Origin: Sulfuricella sp.
Lineage (GTDB): Bacteria > Pseudomonadota > Gammaproteobacteria > Burkholderiales > Sulfuricellaceae
Assembly (NCBI GenBank): GCA_019911785.1
Contig: JAIOJM010000139.1
Coordinates: 1 to 9,700, forward strand
Direction of reading: 5' to 3'
DNA length: 9,700 nucleotides
Below are positions 4,980 to 9,430 of this stretch, in pieces. The position numbers and the translations under genes were made by a program. Under the pieces are notes generated by a model, which worked only from the letters and a program-made list of their open reading frames with translations, made no database searches and was not told the origin of the DNA. The stretch's first letter is position 1. The number at the start of each line of letters is the position of its first letter.

Positions 4980-5225
4980 ATGCAAACCGTTAACATCCAC
5001 GAAGCCAAAACGCAATTGTCGCGCTATATTGACCAGGCAGCTACTGGAGATGAAGTGATTATTGCCCGCGCAGGCAGGCCTGTAGCGCGCCTTGTGCCGC
5101 TGGAGGGGGTTGGCAAAGCACGTCAGCTGGGCTTGGGCAAAGCCACTTATACATTACCCGCCGATTTTGACGCCTTGCATGCTGAAGCAATACAAGCCAT
5201 GTTCGAGGCCGGCGAATCGGCATGA
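4980..5225 (+). CDS. Phd/YefM-family antitoxin
   Basis: The 81-residue antitoxin of a type II toxin-antitoxin pair. The N-terminal pattern (MQTVNIHEAKTQLSRYIDQAATGDEVIIARAGRPVARLVPL, about residues 1-41) is the typical Phd/YefM fold: a beta strand, an EAK-x-xLS helix, then GDEVIIxRxGRPVARL, which forms the DNA-binding dimer. Residues from about 45 onward, including FDALHAEAI, are the likely toxin-binding tail that wraps and blocks the PIN toxin. The gene overlaps the toxin start by 4 bp (ATGA at 5222-5225), which indicates translational coupling. The promoter and palindrome at 4915-4951 suggest autorepression, probably strengthened by the toxin complex. The pair is markedly less GC-rich than the upstream phosphorylase gene, consistent with horizontal acquisition. 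Confidence 0.92.
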   Translation: MQTVNIHEAKTQLSRYIDQAATGDEVIIARAGRPVARLVPLEGVGKARQLGLGKATYTLPADFDALHAEAIQAMFEAGESA

Positions 5226-5632
5226 CGCAACGCACCTATTTACTGGATACCAACATTCTGCTCTGCGCGCTCATTGCGCCAGAGCGTTTAAGCGCTGATT
5301 TGCAAGCTCAATTAAGCGATGCGAAAAACACCGTTTACTTCAGTGCGGCGAGTATTTGGGAAGTTGCCATTAAAAGCAGCCTGAACAAAGCCAATTTCGA
5401 TTTTTCGCCCGAAGATATTCATCGGCTTGCCACTGAGACAGATTTTACCGAGTTGCCTATACAAGCCCAGCATACTTTTGCAGTGGCCAACATGACATGG
5501 CATCACCGCGACCCATTTGATAGGTTACTGATTGCGCAAGCTTTATCGTTACCCGCTTATTTGCTGACGAGCGATAGTATGCTCGAACAATACTCGGAGT
5601 TAGTGCAATTAGCGCCGTTGAAACAAATGTAG
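5222..5632 (+). CDS. PIN-domain toxin, VapC-like ribonuclease (partner of the Phd antitoxin)
   Basis: A 136-residue PIN-domain endoribonuclease. The acidic Mg2+-binding residues are visible: Asp9 in YLLDTNI, Glu47 in AASIWEVAIK, Asp97 and/or Asp100 in WHHRDPFDRLLIAQA, and Asp118 in LLTSDSML. The HHRDPFDR signature marks the PIN subgroup usually paired with Phd/YefM antitoxins rather than the classic VapB pairing. Such toxins arrest translation by cutting tRNA or rRNA when the antitoxin is degraded; the target here cannot be read from sequence. The start overlaps the antitoxin stop by 4 bp, and there is no independent ribosome site. Hand counts give 26-28 G/C per 60 bases, against 41 of 60 in the phosphorylase gene. 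The protein is full length with no missing catalytic residue. Confidence 0.92.
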   Translation: MTQRTYLLDTNILLCALIAPERLSADLQAQLSDAKNTVYFSAASIWEVAIKSSLNKANFDFSPEDIHRLATETDFTELPIQAQHTFAVANMTWHHRDPFDRLLIAQALSLPAYLLTSDSMLEQYSELVQLAPLKQM

Positions 5633-5690: not shown

Positions 5691-5730
5691 ATAATGCCGC
5701 TGAATGAAGAGGGCGATGGAGAACAAAAAC

Positions 5731-8607
5731 ATGACCCCGCGCGAATTCATCGAGAAGTGGCGAGACAACCCGCTCAAAGAGCGCGCCAGCTATCAGCTCC
5801 ACTTCATCGACCTGTGCGCCCTGTTGGGCGTGCCCACCCCTTCCCCAGCGACTGCCGAGACTTATTGCTTCGAGCGCGGCGCCGCCCGCACCGGAGCCGG
5901 ACAAGGCTGGGCCGATGTCTGGAAAAAAGGATTCTTCGGGTTTGAATACAAAGCCACGCGGCGCAACCTGGGCGAAGCCCTGAAACAGTTGATGACCTAC
6001 GCGCTGGCATTGGACAACCCGCCGTTGCTCGTGGTGTGCGATACCAACATCATCGAAATCCACACCCACTTCACCAACGCGCCCAGCGAAGTTCACACCA
6101 TCGCGCTGGAAGACATCGCTGAACCCGCCAACCTCGACAAACTGCGCTGGCTGTTCACCGACCCCGACAAGTTCCACCCCAAGCGCACCATCGCGCAGAT
6201 CACCGAAGAAGCGGCGGGCAAGTTCGCCGCCCTCGCCCAGTCGTTGAACGCCAGAGGCCATGCCCCGCAGACCGTGGCGCACTTTCTCAACCAGTGCCTG
6301 TTCTGCCTGTTCGCCGAAGATGCCGAGCTGCTGCCGGCCAAGTTGTTCGAGCGCTTGCTGGATAAAAGCCAGACCGACCCCGCCAAACTTTCCAGCCGCT
6401 TCGAAGAATTATTCAACGCAATGCGCAAGGGGGGCGACTTCGCGCTGGAGGACATTCACTGGTTCAACGGCGGATTGTTCGAAAAGGTGCAAGCGTTACC
6501 CCTCATCACCAGCGAAATAGCCACACTGTACGCCGCTGCCAAACTCAACTGGAGCGGCATCGAGCCCTCCATCTTCGGCACCCTGTTCGAGCGCGGGCTT
6601 GACCCGAAGAAACGCTCCCAGCTCGGCGCGCACTACACCGACCAGCAATCCATTATGCGCATCATCAACCCGGTGATCGTCGAGCCGCTGACGGCGGAAT
6701 GGGAAGCAGCGAAACGCCTCATCGCCGAGCGCATGGCGCTGTACGAGCAAGGCGGCAAAGGCTCGAAGACTGCCCTGCAAGAAGCGCAAGGCGCGTTCAT
6801 CGCCTATCTCGAACGGCTCAAGAATTTCAAAGTGCTCGACCCCGCGTGCGGCAGCGGCAATTTTTTATACCTCGCCCTGCGCGCACTGAAAGACCTCGAA
6901 CACAAGGCCAACCTCGAAGCCGAGCAACTCGGCCTGCATCGTCAGGTCAGCATCGAAGTCTCGCCCGCCAATGTGCTGGGCATCGAACTCAACCCCTACG
7001 CTGCCGAACTCGCCCGCGTCACCGTCTGGATCGGTGAAATCCAGTGGATGCTCAAGAACGGCTACCCCATCCGCAAGAACCCCATCCTGCAACCGCTCGA
7101 TCACATCGAGAACCGCGATGCGGTGCTTTCCTCCCCTCGCCCGCTTGCGGGAGAGGGGCAGGGGGAGAGGGAAGAAGCCCAATGGCCCACCGTCGATGCC
7201 ATCATCGGCAACCCGCCATTTTTGGGCGACAAGAAAATGCGTGGCGAGTTGGGCGATGAGTACACCGAAGCCCTGCGCAAGGTGTATGAAGGCCGGGTAC
7301 CGGGCGGGGCGGATTTGGTGACCTACTGGTTTGAGAAAGCGCGTGCCCAGATTGAAACGGGCAAGTGCCAACGTGCGGGTTTGGTTTCTACCAACTCCAT
7401 TCGGCAGAAGCGCAATCGTCCAGTGCTGGAACGCATTCTGGAGAGCGGGCAAATCTTCAATGCGTGGAGCGACGAAGAATGGATTAACGAGGGTGCGGCG
7501 GTACGAGTATCGCTGGTGTGCTTCGGTGCTAAAAATCATGGGCAGCCAACTATGCTCGACGGACACCCCATATCAACCGTCCATGCCGACCTCACGGCGG
7601 GCGGTAATGGCGGTAGTGACCTGACTGGTGCGATGCCGCTCAAAGAAAATGCCGGATGGTCATACTTCGGTTTATGTCTGGCAGGCGCATTCAAGGTGCC
7701 ATTCGAAACTGCACAAGCTTGGCTCAAACTGCCGAACCCGCACGGCAAACCGAACTCTGACGTGCTGAGACCAATCTACAATGGCTCCGATATTACTAGC
7801 CGCTGGGCAGGCAATTGGGTGATTGATTTTGCATTGATGGATGAACAGCAAGCCGCGCTCTATGAAGCGCCGTTCGCTTTCGTTGTAGAGCAGGTCAAAC
7901 CAACTCGAATCAATAATAACCGCAAGGCACGTGCTGAAAAATGGTGGCAGCACGGTGAGGCGCGTCCCGGAATGCGTCGAGCGCTTGCTGGACTGCCGCG
8001 CTACATTGTGACGGTAGAAACGGCGAAACACAGGGTATTTACTTGGCTGCCAATCTCGGTTGCACCAGAGCATAGGCTCATCGTTTTTCCGCACCACGAT
8101 GATATGACACTCGGCATTTTGTCTTCTCGTTTCCATATCACTTGGACACTTGCGCAAGGTGGGACGTTGGAAGATAGGCCAGTCTATAATTCGACTCGTT
8201 GTTTCGAGACATTCCCATTCCCAGAAGGGTTGACACCCAACCTCACGCCATCCGATTACGCCAACCCCGCAGCCGCTGAGATTGCCGCCGCCGCGCAAGC
8301 GTTGAACACATTGCGCGAAAACTGGCTCAACCCGCCGGAGTGGACGGACTGGGTGCGTACCCCGGAAGAAGAAAAAGCGGGCTACCCCGCGCGCCTCATT
8401 GCCAAACCCGGACACGAGGCCGATTTGAAAAAACGCACCCTGACCAACCTCTACAACGCCCGCCCCGCCTGGCTGGACAACGCCCACAAGACGCTGGATG
8501 CCGCCGTCGCCAAGGCTTATGGCTGGAACGACTACACGCCGGAGATGCAGGACGAGGAAATCTTGCGGCGGTTGCTGGCGTTGAATCTAGAACGTTCCAA
8601 GCTGTAG
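5731..8607 (+). CDS. MmeI-like type IIL (IIG) restriction-modification enzyme, single polypeptide
   Basis: One 958-residue chain predicted to both methylate adenine-N6 and cut DNA at a fixed distance from its site. Domains in order: N-terminal nuclease with Asp62-X9-Glu72-Tyr-Lys74, the same D-X9-E-X-K spacing as MmeI (Asp70, Glu80, Lys82); helical spacer (about 140-300); LGAHYTD at 298-304; SAM motif I DPACGSGNF at 370-378; catalytic NPPF at 494-497; target-recognition domain about 596-833; C-terminal helices ending in DEEILRRLLALNLER. The length fits MmeI relatives (about 920-960). ATG 5731 is chosen because the family starts MTPxEFIxKWR and GGAG precedes it by nine bases; the frame is open from ATG 5704 (nine extra residues). 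It stands alone, as type IIL enzymes do. Oddities: an in-frame palindromic repeat at 467-482 and an AT-richer recognition domain. The recognised sequence cannot be predicted here. Confidence 0.93.
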   Translation: MTPREFIEKWRDNPLKERASYQLHFIDLCALLGVPTPSPATAETYCFERGAARTGAGQGWADVWKKGFFGFEYKATRRNLGEALKQLMTYALALDNPPLLVVCDTNIIEIHTHFTNAPSEVHTIALEDIAEPANLDKLRWLFTDPDKFHPKRTIAQITEEAAGKFAALAQSLNARGHAPQTVAHFLNQCLFCLFAEDAELLPAKLFERLLDKSQTDPAKLSSRFEELFNAMRKGGDFALEDIHWFNGGLFEKVQALPLITSEIATLYAAAKLNWSGIEPSIFGTLFERGLDPKKRSQLGAHYTDQQSIMRIINPVIVEPLTAEWEAAKRLIAERMALYEQGGKGSKTALQEAQGAFIAYLERLKNFKVLDPACGSGNFLYLALRALKDLEHKANLEAEQLGLHRQVSIEVSPANVLGIELNPYAAELARVTVWIGEIQWMLKNGYPIRKNPILQPLDHIENRDAVLSSPRPLAGEGQGEREEAQWPTVDAIIGNPPFLGDKKMRGELGDEYTEALRKVYEGRVPGGADLVTYWFEKARAQIETGKCQRAGLVSTNSIRQKRNRPVLERILESGQIFNAWSDEEWINEGAAVRVSLVCFGAKNHGQPTMLDGHPISTVHADLTAGGNGGSDLTGAMPLKENAGWSYFGLCLAGAFKVPFETAQAWLKLPNPHGKPNSDVLRPIYNGSDITSRWAGNWVIDFALMDEQQAALYEAPFAFVVEQVKPTRINNNRKARAEKWWQHGEARPGMRRALAGLPRYIVTVETAKHRVFTWLPISVAPEHRLIVFPHHDDMTLGILSSRFHITWTLAQGGTLEDRPVYNSTRCFETFPFPEGLTPNLTPSDYANPAAAEIAAAAQALNTLRENWLNPPEWTDWVRTPEEEKAGYPARLIAKPGHEADLKKRTLTNLYNARPAWLDNAHKTLDAAVAKAYGWNDYTPEMQDEEILRRLLALNLERSKL
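7131..7172 (+). repeat. Palindromic intergenic-type repeat inside the R-M coding sequence
   Basis: Positions 7133-7158 form a near-perfect hairpin: arms CCCCTCGCCCGC and GCGGGAGAGGGG around a TT loop, 12 bp with a single mismatch (7139 against 7152). A purine-rich tail, CAGGGGGAGAGGGA, follows to 7172. This is the look of a very common proteobacterial intergenic repeat, yet here it lies in frame and is translated as SSPRPLAGEGQGEREE (residues 467-482 of the 5731 start). Confidence 0.8.
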
Positions 8608-8783: not shown

Positions 8784-9014
8784 ATGGCTAACCTGAGTAT
8801 CCGAAAGCTGGACGACGAAACCATCACGCGCCTGCGCATCCGCGCTGCCCATCACCGAATATCGATGGAAGAGGAGGCTCGACGCATTCTTCGTCAAGCG
8901 GTCACTACCCCCAAACGGCTGGGCGACCTTTCCGTGCAGTTTTTTGGCCCCGAGTCCGGGGTTGAATTAGAACTCCCCCAACATGCCCCGCATGAACCTC
9001 TGAGTTTCACCTGA
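8784..9014 (+). CDS. FitA/VapB-type ribbon-helix-helix antitoxin
   Basis: A 76-residue antitoxin. Residues 1-40 (MANLSIRKLDDETITRLRIRAA, then SMEEEARRILRQAV) are the typical FitA-like ribbon-helix-helix DNA-binding region: strand LSIRKL, then helices around RLRIRAAHHRIS and EEEARRILRQ. The C-terminal tail (about 45-76, with GVELELP) is the expected toxin-binding segment. A good ribosome site (AGGAG, 8773-8777) fixes the start. The stop TGA shares its final base with the toxin ATG (TGATG at 9012-9016), so translation is coupled. It probably represses its own promoter at 8723-8754. The DNA-binding fold differs from the Phd antitoxin at 4980, so the two modules should not neutralise each other (inference). 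Confidence 0.92.
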   Translation: MANLSIRKLDDETITRLRIRAAHHRISMEEEARRILRQAVTTPKRLGDLSVQFFGPESGVELELPQHAPHEPLSFT

Positions 9015-9430
9015 TGATCGTCGTTGATACCAATGTGATTTCAGAAGTCATGCGCCCGCAGCCTTCGCCGGCGGTTCTGAGCTGGTTAAACGCCCAAGAT
9101 GGCAACCAATTATTCATCACCACCGTGACACTGGCAGAAATCGGCTATGGCCTGCGGATTTTGCCAGACGGCCAACGCCGGTGGCAGTTGCACAGCCGTT
9201 TCGAGCAATTCATCGCGCAAGCGTTTGAGGAACGGGTGCTTGATTTTACTGTGTCTGCCGCCCGTTCCTATGCTGAAATCATGGGGCATCGCAAGGAAGT
9301 TGGTCATCCCATGAGCCTACCGGACGGGCAAATTGCAAGTATTGCCCACGCCCACGGGTTTGCCGTTGCCACCCGAAACATCAAGGATTTCGAGGATTGC
9401 GGCCTTGAGCTGATCAACCCGTTTGAATGA
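9014..9430 (+). CDS. FitB/VapC-type PIN-domain toxin
   Basis: A 138-residue PIN-domain ribonuclease. Catalytic acids are visible: Asp5 in MIVVDTNVISEVMRP, Glu42 in TLAEIGYGL, and Asp104 in SLPDGQIASIA. TRNIKDFEDCGLELINPFE (Asp125) near the C-terminus carries the fourth acidic site. These positions closely match Neisseria FitB (Asp5, Glu42, Asp104). The family cleaves RNA and arrests growth when the antitoxin is lost; the RNA target is not evident. It is translationally coupled to the antitoxin (1-bp overlap) with no ribosome site of its own. It belongs to a different PIN subgroup from the toxin at 5222: it has PDGQIA rather than HHRDPFDR. The module is flanked by two copies of the same REP-like repeat. 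Confidence 0.93.
   Translation: MIVVDTNVISEVMRPQPSPAVLSWLNAQDGNQLFITTVTLAEIGYGLRILPDGQRRWQLHSRFEQFIAQAFEERVLDFTVSAARSYAEIMGHRKEVGHPMSLPDGQIASIAHAHGFAVATRNIKDFEDCGLELINPFE

Follow-up and report, generated by a model that had tools for sequence, protein, structure and literature searches.

A 41-bp palindromic repeat, here called R1, is translated in frame inside an MmeI-like restriction-modification enzyme, and it is probably a solo, non-autonomous terminal palindrome of a mobile element driven by a DUF559 nuclease, an element whose mobility and mechanism we infer. This reading draws on what we observed: the in-frame repeat, its dispersal, its recent gain, the recurrence of repeats at one enzyme loop, a complete unit at that same loop, inverted ends at most of the DUF559 loci tested, and a match between DUF559 clades and repeat families.

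An in-frame palindromic repeat in the window enzyme

The window, meaning the whole 9,700-nt stretch of DNA that was analysed, encodes a protein that by its sequence is an MmeI-like type IIG enzyme. Four Pfam domains score above curated cut-offs (MmeI_N, hel, Mtase and TRD), MmeI_C falls below its cut-off (21.3 vs 27), PADLOC calls the protein type IIG (E 4.7e-301), and the nearest PDB entry by sequence is MmeI (5hr4). An ATG at 5731 is a possible alternative start and corresponds to M10, which is invariant in 35 aligned rows. The gene has the following features.

5704..8607, + strand: MmeI-like type IIG restriction-modification gene, 967 aa (Pfam, PADLOC, PDB match 5hr4)
5914..5952, + strand: D71...E81-x-K83, invariant in the 35-row alignment
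6838..6864, + strand: DPACGSGNF, intact, invariant in the 35-row alignment
7123..7182, + strand: recipient loop, residues 474-493, VLSSPRPLAGEGQGEREEAQ, between RDA and WP..VDAIIGNPPF (loop alignment)
7131..7171, + strand: R1, 41-bp dispersed palindromic repeat unit, translated in frame (many genome matches cover exactly 7131-7171)
7133..7158, + strand: hairpin part of R1, an inverted repeat with 12-nt arms, 92% complementary
7159..7171, + strand: G-rich tail of R1; the corresponding tail in R1-type DUF559 units faces inward, to the nuclease gene
7210..7221, + strand: catalytic NPPF motif, intact, invariant in the 35-row alignment

The position of D71, E81 and K83 fits what we take to be the MmeI nuclease motif, and DPACGSGNF is presumably the SAM-binding motif. 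With its core motifs intact, the enzyme probably remained functional after the gain of R1. Directly upstream of the gene is a pair consisting of a Phd/YefM-type antitoxin and a PIN-domain gene (window 4980-5632), and downstream (window 8784-9430) is a second pair, in which a PIN-domain gene accompanies a small 76-aa ORF that looks to us like a FitA-type antitoxin.

The arms of the R1 inverted repeat (7133-7144 and 7147-7158) are separated by a 2-nt spacer and followed by the tail, in agreement with the preliminary description of a near-perfect hairpin with a G-rich tail lying in frame. With the ATG at 5704 taken as the start, R1 touches residues 476-490, and the peptide in the gene is SPRPLAGEGQGER; the earlier numbering of 467-482 is consistent with a start at 5731. 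The unit is 78% G+C and stop-free in all six frames, and the tetranucleotides GTAG and CGTC are absent from both of its strands. Taken alone, the hairpin is only moderately unusual, as 7 of 200 shuffles folded equally well (RNA fold of 7126-7178, -31.4 kcal/mol, z -2.28), and an Rfam scan of 6900-7400 returned no family at gathering score (best E 0.33, an antizyme frameshift element). R1 is present once in the window and in 0 of 200 shuffled windows. We regard the hairpin as more than chance because it is dispersed in relatives' genomes.

Dispersal of R1 in related genomes

R1 matches were found in 19 of 20 relatives' genomes (BLAST, E 0.01 or better; 3 to 72 per genome), and frequent limits of these matches, query positions 20-60, are exactly window 7131-7171. 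R1 in these genomes therefore has the many copies and sharp unit ends of a dispersed repeat, and the proposal that a dispersed palindromic repeat had entered the gene in frame was borne out. Matches also occurred in 94 of 120 genomes sampled from the family of G008, a Gallionella MAG in which L009 lies; because this survey scored no more than seven candidates in any genome, copy comparisons use first-look counts.

Repeats of this kind had been expected to lie normally between genes, an expectation not supported by 20 R1 copies chosen non-randomly from the match list of three genomes: eight were in frame inside Pfam-recognised proteins, six had no covering frame, and six were ambiguous (L288, L301, L302, L304 and L305 among them). 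The hosts of the eight in-frame solo copies are HsdR, HsdM (twice), UvrD, Mfd, a Mur ligase, TilS and AroA. This count excludes L300, where R1 precedes the likely start of a ZnuB-like protein, and treats L307 and L090 as the single R1 copy that they are. One HsdM gene of Sulfuricella sp. T08 (L290, G002:C43:2000-6000) contains four in-frame R1 copies, all encoding PSPxxGRGAGGEG-type peptides.

The loop before NPPF is a favoured acceptor

In a protein search 7997 relatives of the enzyme received scores, and 120 of them were listed. In line with the preliminary description, the nearest relatives have a short loop and no repeat, reading DAVL-NADGS-EAQW in P0006 and NPSGS in P0003, compared to DAVL-SSPRPLAGEGQGERE-EAQW in the window. 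NADGS takes up 5 codons and SSPRPLAGEGQGERE 15; judged by this alignment with homologues that lack the segment, the entry of R1 is a replacement of about five codons, and the idea of a clean, pure insertion had to be given up. In a FastTree phylogeny of 181 rows, with loop columns excluded, the window enzyme belongs to a starred five-row clade in which the other four rows are short-looped. Because the nearest relatives are short-looped, R1 in the window is a recent gain.

These 181 non-redundant rows, left from 200 after the removal of 19 near-duplicates, were surveyed for loop state. Loops of 9-10 residues were present in 86 rows, other non-repeat loops in 36, and repeat-type loops in 59, window included. 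The 59 comprise R1 (19), R2 (18), R3 (8), R4 (6), R5 (3), R6 (3), a GTAG-type repeat (1) and a whole DUF559 domain (1), with types assigned from peptide pattern rather than DNA, so that the resemblance between R1 and R2 may have led to errors in individual labels. Seven repeat types thus occur at the recipient loop, and the tree calls for at least 31 changes between repeat and no repeat, or 61 for all states. The loop before NPPF, which had been called an unusual place for an insertion, is a favoured acceptor, and no other site found in the enzyme family takes up insertions as often (59/181 rows). Lesser sites lie near residues 580, 609-616, 850-857 and 902, on a map that leaves out L012, whose frame is broken.

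Five loop types were matched against their own genomes and proved to be multi-copy there (60 matches for L001, 16 for L022, 18 for L019, 44 for L030 and 47 for L005); one palindrome can be counted on both strands and the query finds itself, so the distinct places are fewer. A comparably long loop without a repeat served as control and had no match other than itself in three genomes. A crude pattern for a kept DGS-E turn matched 4 of the 59 repeat loops, within repeat-type letters. The preliminary description had named the same residues in homologues as a finding that would refute it; they do occur in P0034, but in P0009, P0026 and P0083 R1 is read in another frame or in reverse orientation, so that relatives together use two forward frames and the reverse. 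The different frame and orientation argue for repeated independent insertion and against a conserved protein segment. One MmeI-like gene (L017, G010:C85:14758-15189) has two R3 copies at different loops, 94% and 93% identical to L001's. At L001, repeat-like peptides of several types occupy three loops of one enzyme (near 476-488, 609 and 850-859 of P0001).

A complete R1-DUF559-R1 unit at the same loop

The relative P0054, which its source names Candidatus Nitrotoga arctica, carries some 440 bp in this same loop, made up of an R1-like end, a DUF559 domain and an inverted R1-like end. L125 in G054 is a close relative. The AF2 model of P0054 (88 rows; pLDDT 85.1, pTM 0.82) has MmeI (5hr4) as its best PDB fold match, and the host core is confident on both sides of the insert at 465-611; the predicted core therefore accommodates the 147 inserted residues. 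The inserted nuclease region reaches no pLDDT block mean above 60, too low for the model to show how this region folds within the host protein. Short strands at 463-464 and 612-613 are placed at the base of the insert, before strand 621-624 leading to NPPF, and in the model they may pair with each other. An AF2 model of P0001 (35 close rows) was set aside owing to its low mean pLDDT of 65, with the loop region mostly <50.

Palindromic ends of DUF559 loci

The complete unit in the P0054 loop led us to examine DUF559 loci themselves for flanking repeats. DUF559 (PF04480) is present in 83 of the 120 genomes, and 101 of 108 loci were tested against a repeat library, the other 7 not being located by the queries. 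Within 300 bp, a library repeat was found upstream at 45 loci, downstream at 47, on either side at 62, on both at 30 and on neither at 39, and 109 library hits fell within 300 bp vs 6 beyond. In a library-free test with 92 control intervals taken from the same DUF559 loci, the inverted match between flanks exceeded all 92 controls in 79 of 91 loci (median 52 vs 16); the 12 loci not above controls, like the 39 with no library repeat on either side, count against the proposed element. Direct-order scores also exceeded their controls in 48 of 91 loci, because palindromes match both ways. Within 100 bp of DUF559, R1 upstream was on the gene strand 17 times and on the opposite strand 2 times, and downstream on the opposite strand 21 times and on the gene strand 2 times, so the tails point inward. 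This orientation is clear for R1 only, the counts for R2 and R4 being mixed.

Repeat family follows the DUF559 tree: the 60 labelled rows need 3 changes, which is the theoretical minimum (shuffled mean 24.9, 0/200 as low), on a quick tree of few columns in which near-copies cluster labels and 36 of 96 rows, those without a library label, were left out. Taken singly, R1 requires 2 changes and R2, R4 and R5 1 each, the R2 branch being without support. R3 and GTAG-type repeats had no hit within 300 bp of DUF559 at the 101 loci, with one R3 hit elsewhere in those loci, and the occurrence of these two and of R6 at the recipient loop of MmeI-like enzymes counts against the proposed element. Ten long-frame DUF559 loci gave 1 library hit in total, presumably because their ends differ from the library. 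DUF559 frames of about 1320-1680 aa, which we take to be ordinary domain fusions in helicases, were set aside. Residues E16, D45, E56, D58 and H62 are kept in 95-96 of 96 DUF559 domains (about 94-96 when E, D, the whole of ELDG and H are counted), and judging from Vsr-like nucleases we assume that they are catalytic.

Library hits numbered 114 in 98 DUF559 loci, 0 in 20 RAYT-size loci and 1 (R2) in 30 IS200-like loci, the latter two being transposase classes told apart by frame length, to which we attach these names on our own assumption. Across genomes, DUF559 and first-look R1 copy number are correlated (Spearman 0.63, from first-look candidates and uncorrected for phylogeny), and the median first-look R1 count is 29 in DUF559-positive genomes (n=82) and 8 in negative ones (n=32), covering 114 of the 120 genomes. 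The 32 negative genomes have 1 to 22 first-look candidates each, and Sulfuricella sp. T08 (G002) has 46 R1 matches with zero DUF559 matches, which speaks against strict dependence of R1 on DUF559. One 3.3-Mb genome (G066) carries 14 DUF559 matches and 145 first-look R1 candidates, and the element may have been active there recently. The genomes examined showed no transposition event, no target duplication and no pair of empty and full sites within one species.

DUF559 units in frame inside other genes

DUF559 units continue the frame of a host gene at 19 loci.

MmeI-like, recipient loop before NPPF: L124, L125
MmeI-like, near residue 609: L176
MmeI-like, other branch, after NPPF: L121, L122, L123, L129, L184
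Type ISP: L175
DUF1156 protein: L179
HsdM: L280
HrpA-like helicase: L126, L279
Methionyl-tRNA synthetase (MetG): L127, L128, L130, L286, L287
Indole-3-glycerol phosphate synthase TrpC, frame kept: L281 (in G086)

Pfam was run on 13 of the 19 loci, and the hosts of L122, L123, L125, L128, L129 and L287 were assigned by eye from sequence similarity. At L179 and L280 Pfam names the host upstream of the unit only, and the downstream part is our own reading. Two loci were not counted: L174, a YgiQ-like gene cut upstream by the contig, and L285, which lies before an Sdh5 domain. No Hint/intein domain was recognised by Pfam in 15 ORFs scanned. MetG was matched in 110 of 120 genomes, from which 30 loci were fetched; its linker is empty (67 residues) in L200, L203, L210, L212, L214, L215 and L219, in L226 and L205 contains what by eye are solo repeat-like peptides, and contains a DUF559 unit in five genomes in all.

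A proposed element and the alternatives to it

The initial interpretation of R1 is thus partly supported, and its context is larger than first described, as the link to DUF559 goes beyond what the window contains. The complete element would be [hairpin-tail> DUF559 Vsr-like nuclease gene <tail-hairpin], which in the Nitrotoga example spans about 440 bp. DUF559 may cut DNA and thereby spread the ends, with hairpin ends copied into the break, at times alone. Spread would proceed via break repair with small target losses, which we propose because the loss of a few target codons fits the repair of a break. R1 would have entered the methyltransferase domain at a permissive loop that precedes NPPF, with about five codons lost and the frame kept, giving the enzyme a Pro/Gly/Glu-rich stretch, and selection would retain in-frame landings in tolerant loops. 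We lean, somewhat above even confidence, toward a wider proposal: DUF559 nucleases, together with the palindromes specific to each clade, would be a kind of minimal mobile element not described before, a nuclease gene flanked by hairpins whose frame is open from end to end in many copies. Such an element would enter conserved genes in frame, essential ones included, and add a nuclease domain to the host protein without splicing, while its solo ends would multiply by the dozen and give rise to new protein loops.

Three other explanations bear on these data. The DUF559 genes could be passengers that insert preferentially between pre-existing palindromes, the repeat being a landing site and not an end. 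Some IS elements do insert into REPs (PMC1525189), and R1 exists without DUF559 in some genomes, yet the R1 ends are inverted with a fixed orientation (17 vs 2 upstream and 21 vs 2 downstream within 100 bp) and DUF559 clades match repeat families, with two changes for R1 and one each for R2, R4 and R5; we consider this explanation unlikely. R1 could also be a conventional REP that owes its spread to a RAYT (TnpA-REP) transposase, with an incidental DUF559 association, which is very unlikely in our judgement. PMC3733652 does describe intragenic REPs, with DNA-repair genes and tRNA synthetases among the hosts, and Y1-type transposases are present in 91 of the 120 genomes. R1 nevertheless has neither GTAG nor CGTC, the GTAG-type and R3 repeats have no hit within 300 bp of DUF559, and library hits concentrate in DUF559 loci (114 in 98) rather than in RAYT-size (0 in 20) or IS200-like loci (the single R2 hit in 30). 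With no library repeat in any of the 20 sampled RAYT-size loci, RAYT is disfavoured as the driver of R1.

Recombination between alleles of the enzyme family, or selection of the repeats as linkers, could also have placed them in the loop without repeated insertion. Replacement of the loop codons, which were not merely interrupted, would suit such a history, as would the flanking of the target-recognition domain (687-841) by the further sites at 609-616 and 850-857. The same unit in differing frames and orientations, unrelated repeat families at one loop, and repeat units in unrelated genes all point the other way, leaving this the least probable of the three. If the proposed DUF559-driven element is real, DUF559, by name still a domain of unknown function, gains a testable role, that of mobilising palindromic repeats without an apparent transposase, and bacterial proteins gain a route to new loops and whole nuclease domains with the frame kept. 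The proteins in which such gains were observed are restriction enzymes, helicases, one aminoacyl-tRNA synthetase and one biosynthetic enzyme. Repeats may likewise be the source of AGEG/GRGAGGEG-type peptides found in annotated proteins.

Comparison with known systems

DUF559 domains often occur in Vsr-like PD-(D/E)XK endonucleases (PMC12907096). At the level of titles, abstract starts and passages of PMC12907096, the matches listed in literature on DUF559, Vsr, REP/REPIN and RAYT contained no link between DUF559 and palindromic ends. Intragenic REPs, as portrayed in passages of PMC3733652, are short palindromes in frame in genes, many of them for DNA synthesis and repair and tRNA synthetases among them, and in two Xanthomonas species recB carries REPs at nearly the same position. 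R1 is likewise a short in-frame palindrome, but the GTAG/CGTC tag is missing from it, and the gene associated with it is DUF559 instead of one for a tyrosine transposase. Rickettsia palindromic elements are a second kind of palindrome in frame in likely functional proteins, and the same passages of PMC3733652 make no mention of a nuclease gene between their ends. Judged by their description, they share in-frame palindromes with R1 and differ in host group.

Inteins and homing-endonuclease inserts also place a nuclease domain in frame in conserved host genes. The DUF559 units differ from them in having no Hint domain in the 15 ORFs and dispersed palindromes as ends, and splicing is not expected. 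MmeI itself (5hr4) differs from the window enzyme in lacking a repeat-derived segment in the corresponding loop. In RAYT-REP and REPIN systems, palindromes flank a single small enzyme gene and many solo copies lie elsewhere. The proposed element shares with them both the palindromes around one small enzyme gene and the solo copies elsewhere, whereas its enzyme is a Vsr-like PD-(D/E)XK-type nuclease (DUF559) in place of the HuH tyrosine transposase of RAYT-REP.
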